A stretch of 44,243 nt of DNA. Origin: Candidatus Muproteobacteria bacterium RBG_16_65_34 (lineage in GTDB: Bacteria; Pseudomonadota; Gammaproteobacteria; Acidiferrobacterales; Sulfurifustaceae). Location: contig MFSU01000048.1 of the NCBI GenBank assembly GCA_001785115.1, positions 1-44,243 of the forward strand, given 5' to 3'. Positions 11,805 through 44,235 of the stretch are shown here, in pieces (within the stretch, counting starts at the first letter, position 1; every line of letters starts with the position of its first letter). Position numbers and translations under genes: made by a program. The notes below the pieces were generated by a model that saw only the letters and a list, made by a program, of their open reading frames with translations, made no database searches and had not been told where the DNA came from.

Positions 11805-12055
11805 ACGACCCACGGAAGTGGCTTGGAAATAAACGGTTTTTTTTTCGAAACACTGCTGCGGGCGGGCGGCGTTTTGTGCACAGCGATGGGAAAGTGGCGC
11901 TCCGGACAAATACGTACATCCATTTTTCCCCGGGCGGATTCTGGCAAGTTGCTGTTTAACAAGAAAAATATCCAGTTGTGCAAAAAATGTTCAATCTGAG
12001 AATCTTCCCGCGAACGTGCCGCATATTTGATTTCGCCTCCAGTCTGCACACAGTT

Positions 12056-12077
12056 TTATCCACAGAATTTGTGAATA
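12056..12077. promoter_or_regulatory. DnaA-box-like inverted pair
   Basis: TTATCCACA at 12056-12064 is a perfect match to the classical DnaA box. TTGTGAATA at 12069-12077 is a one-mismatch box in the opposite orientation, four bases away. Whether DnaA binds is not known; one perfect 9-mer is expected by chance now and then, but a facing pair in an intergenic region is less common. No origin genes are nearby. Confidence 0.35.
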
Positions 12078-12280
12078 GCTTGGCAACCCGTTTCATGTCT
12101 CGGCGATTGTTGCTGAATCTTCCATGAGGCGGGAGTGACCGCACGAATCGGAGATTGTGCCGGCGCTCGCTCTATACGCTGGTGCGAGGTTCAGGTACGC
12201 TTATGCGCGCGTTGCAGGTGTAGGGAACTTCCCCGTCATCCGCCAATCTCTAGAGAGATCCCCCGATTTCGCAGGCATTT

Positions 12281-14284
12281 GTGACTCGCTTGTCGCAGAA
12301 TTTTATCGAGTTCGGCCATTTCGCCTCCTATCTGGCGCTGATGGTTGCGTTGTTGCAAGGTCTGGCGCCCGTCGGGGCGCGGCTCTTGCGCATCCCGAGG
12401 CTCGCCGAAGTAAGCCTCAATGCCGCGGTGGCGGTGTTCGTGTTGACCACGATCGGGGCGCTCAGTCTGATCCACGCCTTTGTCGCCGGCAATTTTTCCG
12501 TACTGTACGTCGCCCAGAACTCGAATCAGGCGCTGCCGCTCTTCTATAAGGTCGCGGCGCTCTGGGGCGGCCACGAAGGCTCGCTCTATCTCTGGGTCTG
12601 GATCCTCACGCTCTATACCGTCATCGTCGCCTGGCACGGGCGCAGCCGTTACCCCGCGCATCTGCCCGTGATCCTCTCCGTGCAGGGCTGGCTCATGGTC
12701 GGGTTCTTCGGTCTTATCCTGTTTCTGTCCAGCCCCTTCGAGCGCCTGCTGCCCGCGGCGCCCGACGGGCAGGACCTCAATCCGCTGCTCCAGGACCCGG
12801 GCATGGTGGTGCATCCGCCCATGCTGTACCTGGGCTATGTCGGTTTTTCCGTGCCCTTCGCCTTCGCCATGACCGCGCTCCTTACCAACTGGAAGAGCGA
12901 ACTCTGGGTCGGATTCGTGCGGCGCTGGGCGCTGATCGCCTGGGGGTTTCTCACCGCCGGCATCATGATCGGCGGCTGGTGGGCCTATTACGAGCTCGGC
13001 TGGGGCGGCTACTGGGGCTGGGACCCGGTGGAGAACGCCTCGTTCATGCCGTGGCTGATCGGGACCGCGCTGGTGCATTCGATCGCCGTGCAGGATCGCC
13101 GGCACATGCTGCACGCGTGGAATATCTTCCTCGTGATCTCCACGTTCTCGCTCTCCCTTCTCGGAACCTTTCTCGTGCGCTCGGGGGTGCTGTCCTCGGT
13201 GCACGCCTTCGCCGTCGACCCGGGGCGCGGCGCCTATATCCTCAGTTTCATGGTGATCGTGCTGTCGGTCTCATTCGGCATTTTCCTCGCCAAGGGCCGT
13301 TACCAGGAGGCGCGCGAGTCCATCACCTCGTTTGTGTCCCGCGAATCGCTGTTCGTATGGAACAACGTGATTTTCACCGCGGCCTGTATCTGTGTGATGC
13401 TCGGCACGCTGTACCCGCTCGCCCTGGACGCGCTCTACGGGGACAAGATCACGGTGGGCGCGCCGTATTTCAACGTCGTGATGGTGCCGCTGTTTCTCAT
13501 GATCCTGCTGCTCATGGGCGTGGGGCCGCTCGTGCCCTGGCGCAAGGCGAACCCCGAGCGCCTGAAGCGCCGGCTCCTGATCCCCGGGATCGTCGGTGCG
13601 ACGGCCGTGGCGTTTATGTGGCTGCTTGGGTGGCACGCGCACTGGACCGCGCCCGCGGCGGTCGGATTTGCCGCCTTCACGGCGGCGGCGCTGTTGACGG
13701 ATTACTGGCGCGCGGTAACTCAGCGCCGCGCGCAGCTCAACGAACCCATCGCCCGTGCGCTGTGGAAGACCGTAGCCGGCAACCGCCGCCACTACGGGGG
13801 CATGGTGGTGCACTTCGGAATCGTGGTGATCGCGCTCGGGCTCGTGGGCTCGGGGCTGTTTCGCTCGGAGATCGCGGTAACGCTCGCCCCGGGCGATGTG
13901 GTGGAGGTGGGCGGCGAGCGGCTGCGCTTCGAGGGTGTGCGCGAGCTGCGCGGGCCGAATTACACTGCCGTGCAGGGGCGCTTCACGATGATCGATTACG
14001 GTCGCAGCGTGGCGCCGGAGCGGCGCCGTTACCTGCGCCAGGAGGCGCCGATGACTGAAAGCGCCATCGATGCGACCTGGTTGCGCGATGTGTACGTGGT
14101 GCTGGCGGAAGCGGCGGGCGCGGAAAAATGGGCCGTGCAGGTCTACGTCAATCCGCTGGTACGGTTCATCTGGTCCGGGGGCGCGATTATCCTCTCGGGC
14201 TTGCTGCTGGCGCTGAGCCAGCGCCGCCCGCGGCAGCGCGAGGCCCGGCCGATCCTGGCCGGGACGGCCCCGGTCAAATCCTGA
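12281..14284 (+). CDS. ccmF: cytochrome c heme lyase subunit CcmF
   Basis: A 667-residue polytopic inner-membrane protein that joins heme to apocytochrome c with CcmH/CcmI. The heme-handling WWD domain is seen as WGGYWGWDPVENASFMPW (about residues 243-260). The flanking family motifs LWGGHEGSLYLWVW and MLYLGYVGFSVPFA are present, as are about 15 hydrophobic segments and a C-terminal periplasmic domain. The start is not certain: GTG 12281 gives MTRLSQNFIEFGHFASYLAL, and most family members begin about four residues before the E-x-GHFA segment, which agrees. It is the first gene of a plus-strand ccmF-ccmH-ccmI block; ccmG, normally directly after ccmF, is instead in the opposing block. Confidence 0.96.
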   Translation: MTRLSQNFIEFGHFASYLALMVALLQGLAPVGARLLRIPRLAEVSLNAAVAVFVLTTIGALSLIHAFVAGNFSVLYVAQNSNQALPLFYKVAALWGGHEGSLYLWVWILTLYTVIVAWHGRSRYPAHLPVILSVQGWLMVGFFGLILFLSSPFERLLPAAPDGQDLNPLLQDPGMVVHPPMLYLGYVGFSVPFAFAMTALLTNWKSELWVGFVRRWALIAWGFLTAGIMIGGWWAYYELGWGGYWGWDPVENASFMPWLIGTALVHSIAVQDRRHMLHAWNIFLVISTFSLSLLGTFLVRSGVLSSVHAFAVDPGRGAYILSFMVIVLSVSFGIFLAKGRYQEARESITSFVSRESLFVWNNVIFTAACICVMLGTLYPLALDALYGDKITVGAPYFNVVMVPLFLMILLLMGVGPLVPWRKANPERLKRRLLIPGIVGATAVAFMWLLGWHAHWTAPAAVGFAAFTAAALLTDYWRAVTQRRAQLNEPIARALWKTVAGNRRHYGGMVVHFGIVVIALGLVGSGLFRSEIAVTLAPGDVVEVGGERLRFEGVRELRGPNYTAVQGRFTMIDYGRSVAPERRRYLRQEAPMTESAIDATWLRDVYVVLAEAAGAEKWAVQVYVNPLVRFIWSGGAIILSGLLLALSQRRPRQREARPILAGTAPVKS

Positions 14285-14302
14285 CGCCGTGATGCGACGC
14301 AA

Positions 14303-14791
14303 ATGAACAGGTCGGTTTCCCATTTTTATCCGCGTTTATCCGCGTTCATCTGCGGTTTCGCGGTGTTGTTCTTGTTCGCCTCGGCGATCGCCGATCAGGT
14401 GGCGGAGGATCCCCTCGAGCGGCAGATGCTCGATATCGCCAAGGATCTGCGCTGCGCGGTGTGCCAGAACCAGCCGATCTCGGAGTCGAACGCCGACCTC
14501 GCGCGCGACATGCGTGAGGTCATCCGCGAGCAGCTCAAGGCCGGAAAATCGCGCGCCGAGATCGTCCGGTATTTCGTCGATCGTTACGGCAACTACGTCC
14601 TGATGAAACCCCCCTACGAGGGTACCGGGGCGCCGCTTTGGGCCTTGCCGCTCGCGATCTTTCTGGTTCTGGCGGCGTCGGCCTGGGTGTTCCTCAAACG
14701 CCGGCTGCGCGCGCCCATGCCTCCGCCGCCCGAGCTGACCGAGCAGGACCGCGCGCGCGTGCGCGAGGCGCGCCGGCAGGAAGCCGAATGA
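14303..14791 (+). CDS. ccmH: cytochrome c maturation thioredoxin-like protein CcmH (CycL type)
   Basis: A 162-residue periplasm-facing protein that reduces apocytochrome heme-binding cysteines. The signature LRCAVCQNQPISESNADLA is clear, and a C-terminal membrane anchor (LWALPLAIFLVLAASAWVFL) is present. A signal peptide precedes DQVAEDPLE, with predicted cleavage after ASAIA. Unusually, part of that signal peptide (FYPRLSAFICGF) is encoded by a dispersed repeat at 14325-14358. The ATG at 14303 lies 18 nt after the ccmF stop with no clear ribosome site. The stop overlaps the ccmI ATG (ATGA). Confidence 0.94.
   Translation: MNRSVSHFYPRLSAFICGFAVLFLFASAIADQVAEDPLERQMLDIAKDLRCAVCQNQPISESNADLARDMREVIREQLKAGKSRAEIVRYFVDRYGNYVLMKPPYEGTGAPLWALPLAIFLVLAASAWVFLKRRLRAPMPPPPELTEQDRARVREARRQEAE
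14325..14358 (+). repeat. 34-bp dispersed repeat within the ccmH signal-peptide region
   Basis: This 34-base stretch, built from ATCCGCGTT / ATCTGCGGTTT words, matches 43051-43084 upstream of proB at all but two positions. It also matches, inverted, the end of obgE (42969-43001). Inside ccmH it is translated as about twelve residues, including part of the hydrophobic core of the signal peptide. The element family is defined only from these three sites. Confidence 0.85.
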
Positions 14792-15678
14792 CGCTCTGGG
14801 CCTGGACTGTGGTCGCGCTCGTTTTGAGCACCGCGACCGTCGTGTTTCTGGCGCGGCCGCTCGGACGCGGTCCGCAGCCCGAGCGGCGCGAGCAGCGCCA
14901 CGAGCTGACGCTGCTGCGCGACCGGCTGCTGGCGCAGCTCAATGAGCTCGATATCGAGACCGGAGACCGGAATCTCGACCCCGAGGTCGTGCAGGACGAG
15001 CGCCGTCGCCTCGAGGGCGAGCTCGCCCAGGTGTTGCGCGATCTCGATGCGGCGCAGGCCGCCGCACCGGCCGCCGCACCGGCGACGGAGGCCGGGCGCT
15101 GGCGCGCGACGCTGATCGTGCTGGCGCTCGTGCTCCCGCTCGCCGCCGCCGGGCTCTACGTCCTCAACCACAAAGTTGCGCCGTCCAATCTCGAGGCCCT
15201 GTTCGAGGGCGCAATCGACGTGCCGATGGACGTGCTCAAGATGGTCAAGCGGTTGGAGAAGCGTCTGAGCCAGCAGCCCGACGACGCTCCGGGCTGGGCC
15301 CGCCTGGGCCGCTCCTACGCCGTTCTGGGGCGCCCGGAGGATGCCAAGGCGGCGTTCGCCAGGGCTTATGGCCTCGCGCCCGAGGATCGGGCCGTCGTGG
15401 CGGATTACGCCTGGTTCTTGTACAACCAGGATCCGAGTAACACCCAGGGTCTGGTGAGCGAGATCTATACCCGCCTGTACCGTCTGGAGCCGCAGCACCC
15501 GGGCGCGCTGTGGTTCCTCGGGTTGGCTGCCTATCAGAAGGGGGAGGCCAAACAGGCGATCGCCTACTGGGAGCGGCTGCTTAAGGTCTTGCCGCCGGAG
15601 TCCGAAGAGTCGGTGACCAGTGTGCGCGCGGCGATCGCCCAGGCGCGCGCGGAAGCGCGGCACCCGCCCCGTCAGTAA
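14788..15678 (+). CDS. ccmI: cytochrome c maturation TPR protein CcmI
   Basis: A 296-residue apocytochrome chaperone. It has an N-terminal membrane helix (TLWAWTVVALVLSTATVVFLA), then a coiled-coil segment (about residues 35-90: LRDRLLAQLNELDIETGDRNLDPEVVQDERRRLEGELAQVLRDLD, in pieces). A second membrane helix (TLIVLALVLPLAAAGLYVL) follows, and a TPR domain with PDDAPGWARLGRSYAVLGRPEDAKAAFARAYGL completes it. It is shorter than fused CcmI proteins of about 400 residues but complete in domain order. The ATG overlaps the ccmH stop. The reading frame open upstream of 14788 is a ccmH shadow. Confidence 0.93.
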   Translation: MTLWAWTVVALVLSTATVVFLARPLGRGPQPERREQRHELTLLRDRLLAQLNELDIETGDRNLDPEVVQDERRRLEGELAQVLRDLDAAQAAAPAAAPATEAGRWRATLIVLALVLPLAAAGLYVLNHKVAPSNLEALFEGAIDVPMDVLKMVKRLEKRLSQQPDDAPGWARLGRSYAVLGRPEDAKAAFARAYGLAPEDRAVVADYAWFLYNQDPSNTQGLVSEIYTRLYRLEPQHPGALWFLGLAAYQKGEAKQAIAYWERLLKVLPPESEESVTSVRAAIAQARAEARHPPRQ

Positions 15679-15697
15679 GGCCGGGTTGGATTGTTTA

Positions 15698-15851
15698 CCA
15701 CTGAGGACACAGAGAAAGACTAGAATGGACAGGATTAACAGGATTTACAGGATTAACACAAACACCACTTCAAAAACGTTGTTGCCTTGTCCCTAATCCT
15801 GTTAATCCTGTCCATTTGTTTTTGTTCTCTCTGCGATCTCTGCGGTGAAAA
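15698..15851. repeat. nested inverted repeats between convergent ccmI and ccmG
   Basis: An inner perfect inverted repeat has 22-bp arms at 15724-15745 and 15795-15816 (AATGGACAGGATTAAC... and its complement), with extra AGGATT-AC copies in between. It is flanked by a weaker outer pair: CACTGAGGACACAGAGA near 15702 and CTCTGCGATCTCTGCGGTGA at 15829-15848. The outer right arm belongs to the same family as the pair before obgE (41853-41929). It sits where two opposing operons end, so it could act as a bidirectional terminator-like structure, although no strong U tract is seen. Confidence 0.85.
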
Positions 15852-15854
15852 CTT

Positions 15855-16376
15855 TTACCCCAGCTCCCGGACCAAGGGCAGGAGCTTGTCCTGCCAGGTC
15901 TCGATCGTGACCGGGCCGATGTGCTTGTAGCGGATCACGCCCTCCTTGTCGATCACGAAGGTCTCCGGCACGCCATAGACGCCGAGCTCGATGCCGAACC
16001 GCCCTTCGAGATCGACAATGCTCGTCTCGTAGGGATCGCCCAGGTCTTTGAGCCAGCTCAGGGCGTCCGCGCGCTGGTCCTTGTAGTTGAGTCCGACGAT
16101 GGGCGCGCCTTTTTGCCGGGCGATTTCAAGAAGAACCGGATGCTCCTGGCGGCAAGCCGTGCACCACGAGGCCCAGACATTGAGCAGGTATACCCGCCCG
16201 CGCAGGTCGTTCGGGCTCAGGCTGCGCTTGGGGTTTGCGAGGGTCGGCAGCGCGAAGGCCGGCAGCGGCTTGCCGATCAGGGGCGAGGGGATCTTGCGCG
16301 GATCGAGCGCCAGCCCGGACCAGAGCAGTACGCCCAGCAGGGCGAAGAGCGCGATCGGGATAACAAATTTCTTCAC
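15855..16376 (-). CDS. ccmG: thiol:disulfide interchange protein CcmG (DsbE)
   Basis: A 173-residue membrane-anchored thioredoxin that reduces apocytochrome c before heme attachment. Visible features are an N-terminal anchor (VIPIALFALLGVLLWSGLAL), the active site W71-C72-T-A-C75 in LLNVWASWCTACRQEHPVLLE, and the cis-Pro segment GVYGVPETFVID, typical of CcmG. The more common active site is WCxPC or WCPTC; Thr-Ala is an uncommon dipeptide but both cysteines are intact. It is the last gene of the minus-strand block ccmA-B-C-D-E-G and overlaps the ccmE stop by 4 nt. Confidence 0.95.
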   Translation of the reverse strand: MKKFVIPIALFALLGVLLWSGLALDPRKIPSPLIGKPLPAFALPTLANPKRSLSPNDLRGRVYLLNVWASWCTACRQEHPVLLEIARQKGAPIVGLNYKDQRADALSWLKDLGDPYETSIVDLEGRFGIELGVYGVPETFVIDKEGVIRYKHIGPVTIETWQDKLLPLVRELG

Positions 16377-16804
16377 GGCTTCTTGTAGGCCGAACCCTCG
16401 AGGGCCTTGGCGGCCTCGGGTGGCATGTAGTTCTCGTCGTGCTTCGCAAGCACCTCGCGCGCGAGGAAGCGGTGGTCGCGCAGCTTTCCCTGCGCCACGA
16501 TGCCCTGGCCCTCGCGGAAGAGATCCGGCAGCACGCCCCGGTAGTGCACCGTGACGCTCTTGTTGTTGTCGGTGACGATGAAGTCCACCGTGAGGCCGTC
16601 CGCGGACTTCTTGACGCTGCCCTTCTCGACCAGACCGCCGATGCGGAATTCCTTGTCCACCGGCGCCTTGCCGGAGTAGATCTCGGTGGGCGAGAAGAAA
16701 AACACCAGGTTGCTCTGAAACGCGTTCAGCACGAACAGGCCGGAGACGGTAAGCCCCACGACGCCGACGCTGATGAGGGCAAGACGCTTGTATCTGGGTT
16801 TCAT
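16373..16804 (-). CDS. ccmE: heme chaperone CcmE
   Basis: A 143-residue periplasmic heme chaperone with an N-terminal anchor (ALISVGVVGLTVSGLFVLNAF) and an OB-fold domain (IGGLVEKGSVKK, VHYRGVLPDLFREGQGIVAQG). The covalent heme ligand motif is AKHDENYMPPE, with H122 and Y126, the classical HxxxY. Start and stop overlap neighbours: its ATG shares bases with the ccmD stop (ATGA at 16801-16804), and its stop overlaps ccmG. Confidence 0.97.
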   Translation of the reverse strand: MKPRYKRLALISVGVVGLTVSGLFVLNAFQSNLVFFFSPTEIYSGKAPVDKEFRIGGLVEKGSVKKSADGLTVDFIVTDNNKSVTVHYRGVLPDLFREGQGIVAQGKLRDHRFLAREVLAKHDENYMPPEAAKALEGSAYKKP

Positions 16805-17696: not shown

Positions 17697-17922
17697 GCCG
17701 ATCAAAATATAGATTTCCACCAACTCCCCCTCTCCCCTCGCGGGAGGTGAGGCGGGGTTTTCGCGGATGCACTTAACGTGCATCCGCGCCGCCGAACGGG
17801 CGCGAATGATTCCCTCGCGCCCCGGCGGGAAAAACAAGGGGTTAGGGCGCTACCCCTCTCCCTCATTCCCTCTCCCTCAAGGGGAGAGGGAGGCGAGCCG
17901 AGCGCGCTACGCGCGATTTCAT
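17694..17922 (-). repeat. composite palindromic repeat between ccmB and ccmC
   Basis: These 229 bp separate two genes that normally almost touch. On the minus strand it starts, just after the ccmB stop, with AAATCGCGCGTAGCGCGCTC then GGCTCGCC. It continues with CCCTCTCC-type palindromes, a nested 52-bp hairpin element (17746-17797) and another GGGAGAGGGGG tract. It ends with GGTGGAAATCTATATT then TTGATCGGCATG. Both ends match the valS insert at 3955-4157, where the right end reads GTGAAAATCTCTATTCTGG then TCGGAATG. The right end overlaps the ccmC start codon. Confidence 0.85.
17746..17797. repeat. 52-bp hairpin element, copy 1 (nested)
   Basis: GGTGAGGCGG, then a hairpin with 11-bp arms 17762-17772 and 17778-17788 around the loop TTAAC, then CCGCCGAACG. 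It aligns without gaps to copy 2 at 39611-39662. In this copy the second pair of the stem is G-C; in copy 2 it is A-T, so both sides changed together. Confidence 0.88.
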
Positions 17923-39595: not shown

Positions 39596-39611
39596 TGGTC
39601 GGGGTGAGAGG
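39596..39611. repeat. 16-bp duplicate of the tRNA-Pro 3' end
   Basis: TGGTCGGGGTGAGAGG at 39596-39611 is identical to 39716-39731, which includes CCA, discriminator base, acceptor 3' strand and part of the T arm of tRNA-Pro. The copies are in the same orientation, 120 bp apart. The 104 bp between them contain the hairpin element at 39611-39662. Confidence 0.88.
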
Positions 39612-39662
39612 GTGAGGCGGAGTTCTCACGGATGCACTTAACGTGCATCCGTGCCGCCGAAC
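39611..39662. repeat. 52-bp hairpin element, copy 2
   Basis: Same architecture as 17746-17797: GGTGAGGCGG, an 11-bp stem (39627-39637 with 39643-39653) around TTAAC, then CCGCCGAACG. It differs from copy 1 at about five bases, two of which form one base pair (A-T here, G-C there). A short GC-rich inverted repeat (CCCCGCGCG...CGCGCGGGG, 39664-39686) follows in this copy only. Confidence 0.88.
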
Positions 39663-39715
39663 GCCCCGCGCGCGGGACGCGCGGGGCCGGGAATCCGATC
39701 ACACCAACAGGATGT

Positions 39716-41929: not shown

Positions 41930-43084
<1,155 letters not shown>

Positions 43085-43095
43085 CAAATTCGTTT

Positions 43096-44235
43096 ATGAC
43101 AAAGACCGTGAATCCGAAAACGCGCGAGGCCCTGACCCGCGCCAGGCGCGTGGTGGTGAAGATCGGGAGTGCGCTCCTTACCCGCGACGGCCAGGGCCTG
43201 AACCGCGAGGGCATCGAGGACTGGGCGGTGCAGATGACGGCGCTGCGCGCGCGCGGGATCGAGGTGCTGCTCGTGACCTCCGGGGCGGTCGCCGCCGGCA
43301 TGCAGCGTCTCGGGCGCACGGAGCGACCGCGCGCGCTGCACGAGCTGCAGGCGATGGCGGCGGTGGGCCAGATGAGCCTGGTTCAGGCGTACGAAACGGC
43401 GTTCCAGCGCCACGGGCTGCACACGGCGCAGGTGCTGCTCACGCACGACGATCTTGCCTCCCGCAACCGCTACCTCAACGCGCGCAGCACGCTGCGCACG
43501 CTGCTCGGGCTCAACGTGATTCCGGTGATCAACGAAAACGACACGGTGGCGACCGAGGAGATCCGCTTCGGCGACAACGACACTCTGGCCGCGCTGGTCG
43601 CGAATCTGGCCGAGGCCGATCTGCTGTTGATCCTCACCGACCAGGCCGGGCTCTACGACCAGGACCCGCGCCGGCATCCGGACGCACGGCTCGTGCCGGA
43701 GGGTGAGGCGGGCGACTCGAGGCTGCTCGCCATGGCCGGCGGATCGGGGGCGCTCGGGCGCGGCGGCATGCACACCAAGCTCCTTGCGGCGGAGCGCGCC
43801 GCGCGCTCCGGGGCGGCGACCGTGATCGTCTCGGGGCGCGAGGCGAATGTGCTGGAGCGGACCGTTTCCGGAGAAGCCCTCGGGACCTATCTCAGGCCGG
43901 CGGAGGGGCGCCTGGCGGCGCGCAAACAGTGGCTCGCGGGCCCCGCGCGCACGGCCGGCCGGCTGGTGCTCGACGACGGCGCCGTGCGGGTCATCCGCGA
44001 GGCCGGCAAGAGCCTGCTGCCGGTGGGTGTGACGCGCGTGGAAGGCGAGTTCGGCCGCGGCGAGGTTGTCTCGTGTCTCGATGCCCAGGGTCGGGAGGTC
44101 GCCCGGGGGCTCGTCAACTACAGCTCGGAGGAGGCCGCGCGCATCGTCGGCCAGTCGAGCGACAGGTTCGAGTCGATCCTCGGGTACGTGGACGAGCCGG
44201 AGCTTATCCACCGCGACAATATGGTGGTGCTGTGA
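43096..44235 (+). CDS. proB: glutamate 5-kinase
   Basis: A 379-residue enzyme for the first step of proline synthesis. The amino-acid-kinase domain has [30 protein letters not shown], and [24 protein letters not shown] (in pieces), then [19 protein letters not shown]. The C-terminal PUA domain runs from about residue 280 ([23 protein letters not shown]). The start ATG 43096 follows the repeat; the first residues [13 protein letters not shown] are extra relative to most homologues and no clear ribosome site is present. The gene is complete; 8 nt remain after it in the window. Confidence 0.97.

Follow-up and report, generated by a model that had tools for sequence, protein, structure and literature searches.

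The ccmF and ccmH genes follow one another on the forward strand of the window, i.e., the whole 44,243-nt stretch of DNA analyzed here. The ccmF open reading frame (12281-14284, with its stop codon at 14282-14284) lies upstream of ccmH (14303-14791), which encodes a protein of 162 amino acids. Membership in the CcmH family was supported by a match to the profile PF03918 (E = 4e-40) and by the CxxC motif, present as RCAVCQ. Signal peptides were judged in this work by hydropathy and the -3/-1 rule only. On this basis, and with the aid of aligned relatives, a signal peptide of 30 residues, MNRSVSHFYPRLSAFICGFAVLFLFASAIA, was predicted at 14303-14392 (forward strand), with A-x-A at positions -3/-1, an uncharged core of 19 residues and a mature protein beginning with DQVAEDP. 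The earlier note on this DNA had stated that twelve residues at the front of CcmH are encoded by a dispersed repeat, and this was indeed the case, as residues 8-19 of the predicted signal, FYPRLSAFICGF, are repeat-coded in the ccmH frame. The repeat copy (14325-14359, forward strand; F-YPRLSAFICGF of CcmH) was recognized through the repeat comparison within the window, the count of its core and the pairing of its arms. Only AVLFLFASAIA (14360-14392, forward strand) follows it in the predicted signal peptide, and this non-repeat remainder is the counterpart of the core and c-region in relatives that are free of the repeat.

Base-by-base reading of 14325-14358 against 43051-43084 gave 32 identical bases out of 34, the two mismatches being T/A at position 13 and C/T at position 17, in agreement with the match claimed previously; over 14325-14359 and 43051-43085 the repeat comparison within the window gave an identity of 94%. 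The partner copy was likewise found to be non-coding and to precede proB, as it lies between the end of obg at 43000 and the proB ATG at 43096. A third copy in the window, absent from the earlier note, is inverted, lies at 42966-43001 and encodes the C-terminal tail of Obg, PQMNADERR. The sequence and the inverted repeats I1/I5 identify this third copy as the left arm (reverse strand) of an element whose right arm (forward strand) is the copy at 43051-43085 upstream of proB. Because the left arm encodes both the Obg tail and its stop codon, the 3' end of obg and the gap before proB are contained within one element.

The repeat is thus one arm of an inverted-repeat element, a pairing that the earlier note did not describe, in which a left arm, GGAACCGCAGATGAACGCAGAT(AAACGCAGAT), and a right arm, (ATCTGCGTTT)ATCTGCGTTCATCTGCGGTTTC, are separated by a variable spacer. 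A 20-base core of the repeat was found with at most two mismatches at 229 places in the genome of the window (G000; an assembly of 2.03 Mb in 109 contigs, 75% complete), and the reversed-pattern control gave 0. The genome-wide survey of copies consisted of sampled stretches around listed copies. Amongst the sampled G000 loci, 43 pairs of a minus-strand arm followed by a plus-strand arm were observed, with 22-158 nt between the 20-nt cores, and copies were mostly present as inverted pairs; the median core-to-core distance was 41-49 nt in three genomes. The flanks of 145 elements were A/T-rich, with runs of T on the right side. The element is a lineage-specific palindromic repeat composed of two inverted arms of about 30 nt, built from 10-nt units, with a variable spacer between them. 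All three frames of the right arm encode hydrophobic peptides (FICVYLRSSAV, LSAFICVHLRF and YLRLSAFICGF; mean hydropathy +1.4 to +1.6). The frames of the left arm are hydrophilic (hydropathy -1.8 to -2.5), and one of them, KPQMNADKRR, provides an ATG followed by a charged segment.

Within the 20 genomes of the family, the copy numbers were 156, 169 and 184 in genomes G000, G010 and G016, respectively, and 42 and 27 in G004 and G018. The distribution is patchy, with 27-69 copies in five genomes beyond the first three and 0-7 copies in the rest. A genome from a different family of the order held 70 copies, and among 399 sampled genomes of the phylum the repeat was nearly confined to the window's family and one further family. 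The named kin are Candidatus Muproteobacteria RIFCSPHIGHO2_12_FULL_60_33, Sulfuricaulis sp. S40-5 and other Acidiferrobacterales. Copies at the same operon junctions were also observed in three genera (loci L114/L280/L241, L008/L297/L127, L013/L124, L101/L125, L021/L129 and L107/L253), well above random. A literature search with the letters of the repeat found no paper containing the sequence, and an Rfam search of window positions 12000-16500 returned zero matches around the ccmH copy; the palindromic repeat family has apparently been undescribed so far.

A degenerate left (inverted) arm of the element was recognized on the reverse strand at 14291-14308, where it contains the ccmH start codon. 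This remnant, which had not been reported previously, aligned as GATGCGACGCAAATGAAC against GATGAACGCAGATGAAC at 15 of 17 bases with one gap (12 of 1000 shuffles were as good), and a predicted RNA fold paired 14291-14308 with the right arm (z -2.2 in G000). Given this decayed opposite arm, the ATG at 14303 is probably element-derived too. The same bases can also be read in another way. By sequence reading, ATG CGA CGC AAA TGA at 14292-14306 on the forward strand forms a four-codon leader that ends in a TGA overlapping the 14303 ATG (ATGA), and it may be the remnant of an old ccmH start (MRR...) resembling the MRRLI, MRRFF and MRRAW of element-free relatives, an alternative that competes with the decayed left arm (p about 0.01).

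CcmH was present in 19 of the 20 family genomes, and in five of these (G000, G010, G016, G004 and, in degenerate form, G018) the element occupies the ccmF-ccmH junction, so that filled and empty sites both exist among relatives. The left-arm similarity over the ccmH start was better than that of 1000 out of 1000 shuffles in G010, G016, G004 and G018, and better than 988 out of 1000 in G000; in G004 the left arm includes even the ccmF stop. The N-termini of the carriers read MNTDKHRFLSRQQIFDLCSSVFICGFAVLFFVVAASA in G010, MDTDKHR... in G016 and MKNFSNLFVKYLCSFALICGFAFFSVSTFA in G004. Relatives free of the element have unrelated, ordinary CcmH signal peptides (e.g., MRHLILLALFIVVPVFA, MRRLIPLILFLAAMQLWA and MRRFFLLLLFVAIPAFA). 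The earlier note had proposed that its interpretation would fall if relatives without the repeat family had the same N-terminal residues, and the alignment of CcmH N-termini revealed that these residues differ. The ccmF stop and the conserved EDP codon were 120-167 nt apart in carriers (120 nt in G000) versus 65-80 nt in repeat-free relatives, and the predicted signals were 30-44 amino acids long with the element (uncharged core of 19-28) versus 17-22 without it (core of 14-18). In all carriers, the last 9-14 signal residues and the cleavage site are predicted to lie outside the repeat, and removal of the repeat leaves a stump of 10-12 residues without positive charge. Amongst the repeat copies sampled in G000, G010 and G016, ccmH ranked first as a repeat combined with a hydrophobic N-terminus.

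A repeat-derived signal was not unique to the ccmH gene of the window, as it was found in these four additional relatives and in a second gene. On contig C57 of G000, a GSDH-family protein (PF07995) starts with MNADGRRSK...HLRLSAFICGSLLLFSSAFA-APC (full head MNADGRRSKVPFGVARSSCSHLRLSAFICGSLLLFSSAFA-APC), and this head runs from the left arm through the right arm to a non-repeat end, with the same architecture as in ccmH. In its closest orthologue, from G010 (76% identity), the signal peptide is an ordinary one, MPYPKAGIFFALLCAATAAHA. Apart from these cases, few of the sampled copies (roughly 170-210 distinct ones per genome) were fused to an N-terminus.

Judging from these sequence comparisons, it is very likely that the element came to lie over the front of an existing CcmH signal, with the start region, the n-region and the front half of the core now being repeat-coded. 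The element would have removed or displaced the old ccmH start, and translation would now begin in the left arm, at ATG 14303 in G000 and with MN- or MD- in the other carriers, a start that we infer from the open frame only. In G016, the frame also contains a native ATG that overlaps the ccmF stop, and the ATG of the element therefore need not be the start there. The n-region would be derived from the left arm and the spacer and the first half of the hydrophobic core from the right arm, while the last ~11 residues and the cleavage site would be those of the old signal peptide. Because the right arm is hydrophobic in any frame and the left arm supplies an ATG and charges, a usable Sec signal can remain after an element has come to lie over the start of an exported gene. 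The replacement was probably neutral, and purifying selection on CcmH export would then keep the repeat readable.

In a tree of concatenated CcmF, CcmH and CcmI, G000 grouped with G010 (91), and G016, G004 and G018 fell in another clade, with non-carriers between. This pattern would need about four changes, either four gains or two gains and two losses, and two to four gains would fit equally. The sisters G000 and G010 carry different flavours of the repeat (GCG and GTG). Additionally, for 16 of 58 sampled G000 clusters the orthologous gene side also bears an element in G016, and for 8 of 58 this holds in G010; examples of such shared junctions, with gene names taken from protein sequences, are rpsJ-rplC, the 3' side of trmD, and ilvC. 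G000 and G010 have similar rpsJ-rplC spacers, with 0.5% of unrelated spacers being as similar, which supports common descent at this site. Spacer similarity was borderline at ftsQ-ddl, and common descent of the spacer was not seen at the other shared sites tested (ten comparisons). Such sharing points either to the retention of old elements or to a preference of elements for certain junctions, and not simply to recent random jumps. For this reason, the term mobile stays unproven.

The description of the repeat as mobile DNA in the earlier note agrees with the empty and filled sites among relatives. It is opposed by the overrepresentation of copies at operon junctions shared between genera and by the negative search for a target-site duplication: among 145 elements, matches of 2-5 nt between the flanks did not exceed those of shuffles, and 6-nt matches were seen in two elements only. 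A dedicated transposase was likewise not identified in the loci checked. As in MITEs, terminal inverted repeats surround a short non-coding core (43 arm pairs); a conserved core, which MITEs also have, was not found, the spacers being unrelated between most copies. The association of REP/BIME with RAYT was not reproduced here, since Y1_Tnp genes occurred in repeat-rich and repeat-free genomes alike. Six of the seven Y1 transposase genes checked had no copy in their locus and one had a distant pair, and amongst the loci checked only the Y1_Tnp gene of G000:C78 had repeat copies, more than 1 kb away. RAYT and 23S-IVP proteins, considered as candidate movers, showed no consistent linkage to the repeat. 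Two elements (G016:C23 and G006:C145) enclose a GxxExxY/PDDEXK_3 open reading frame, but the repeat does not border the majority of such genes, and only these two cases link the nuclease, another candidate mover, to the repeat. The two loci involved, L194 (G016:C23:4428-4849) and L186 (G006:C145), adjoin what seems to be one and the same gene pair and possibly represent an ORF-bearing form of the element.

A further reading, compatible with the replacement of the signal front and held here only tentatively, sees the elements chiefly as RNA hairpins that are conserved within operons and inherited at fixed junctions, with BIME-like roles in processing or translation control; their extension into the CcmH signal would be a side effect, maintained owing to the importance of the hairpin between ccmF and ccmH. 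The 16 gene sides shared by G000 and G016 compare with about 2.5 expected under uniform placement over roughly 1900 junctions (our own estimate), although permissive junctions alone may accept elements and inflate such sharing. Similarly, the likeness of the rpsJ-rplC spacers in G000 and G010 is what conserved hairpins would give, whereas spacers at most shared sites show no sign of common descent. The arms of the ccmH element are predicted to fold strongly in G010, G016 and G004 (z -4.8 to -7.8) and match in flavour within the element in G010 and G016; however, the hairpin of G000 is weak and its left arm decayed, and relatives without the element retain the same operon. Somewhat more speculative is the notion of the element as a ready-made start-plus-signal cassette that would repeatedly have replaced the heads of exported proteins in this lineage, its left arm providing GGAA, an ATG and a charged n-region and its right arm a hydrophobic core whichever frame is read; the recurrence at junctions across genera would then reflect function or targeting and not inert drift.

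It is improbable that the fusion is an annotation effect, with ccmH starting after the repeat and the repeat being 5' untranslated. The ATG at 14303 does lack a clear Shine-Dalgarno sequence upstream, but in-frame starts past the repeat would leave only 10 uncharged residues ahead of the cleavage site, a stump that is too short and lacks the positive n-region seen in relatives, and none of the five carriers has a stop codon in the repeat frame. A start downstream of the repeat was judged unlikely on account of this stump. Slightly less probable again is the proposal of the earlier note that an export signal was born here, i.e., that a mobile repeat gave rise to an export signal by inserting into a gene that lacked one. 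The repeat does supply the start region and half of the hydrophobic core, as this proposal would have it, but element-free relatives, including those in other families of the order, already have complete CcmH signal peptides of 17-22 residues. Since these signals exist and the cleavage end of the carriers lies outside the repeat, the front half appears to have been replaced and lengthened, and export not created; birth is refuted by the element-free orthologues and replacement survives. Chance likeness between a hydrophobic signal and the repeat, conceivable because signal cores are of low complexity and the 10-nt units short, has a negligible probability and was rejected in view of the perfect 20-base core match, the 229 copies against 0 in the control, and the element being in place in five genomes.

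The phenomenon is known in kind and new in its repeat family, host genes and recurrence. The Yersinia palindromic repeat RU-2 (YPAL) forms a portion of the signal peptide predicted for YPO1552, and the signals of its relatives are unrelated (Delihas 2007, PMC2759123; PMC2229807). By sequence and hydropathy, the predicted signals described here share both of these traits. In contrast, YPO1552 is putatively exported and its function is unknown, whereas the hosts here, ccmH and GSDH, are conserved; several related genomes carry the element at one place; and the family differs from RU-2 in anatomy, with its 10-nt units and free spacer. Rickettsia palindromic elements (RPE) occur in frame in many genes (PMC2229807, PMC10969869) and are similar in being palindromic repeats in frame within conserved protein genes. 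RPE are 105-146 bp long and lie inside many proteins, whereas the fusions observed here affect the start/signal peptide or the C-terminal tail, at the ends of genes, and the unit consists of two ~30-nt arms with a free spacer. The element resembles ERIC, NEMIS/Correia and REP/BIME in its high copy number, its intergenic location, its inverted hairpin-capable arms and its presence, in part, at operon junctions; it differs in having no conserved spacer, arms of 10-nt units, no target duplication found and no Rfam match around the ccmH copy.

The repeat-fronted CcmH signals provide a natural test of Sec signal peptide tolerance, in which the front half is swapped for a repeat-coded peptide in a conserved gene of several related genomes and the cleavage end is untouched by the repeat, and the orthologues at empty sites serve as matched controls. 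Caution is warranted with gene starts in repeat-rich genomes (MNADER..., ...SAFICGF), as these can be repeat DNA.

Other dispersed repeats were observed in the ccmF-ccmH gap (244-508 nt) of G017, G013 and G015 (loci L037, L039 and L043, respectively), which do not carry the element; these belong to the families CCCTCTCCC.. and GTAGGGTG... In G017, a CTCTCCC-type repeat follows the single in-frame start available upstream, and by sequence the CcmH n-region may be repeat-coded there as well. A second dispersed palindromic family was also seen in the window, where a 53-nt repeat (17746-17798 and 39611-39663, 92% identity) holds the short palindrome GGATGCACTTAACGTGCATCC and adjoins CCCTCTCCC-type repeats.
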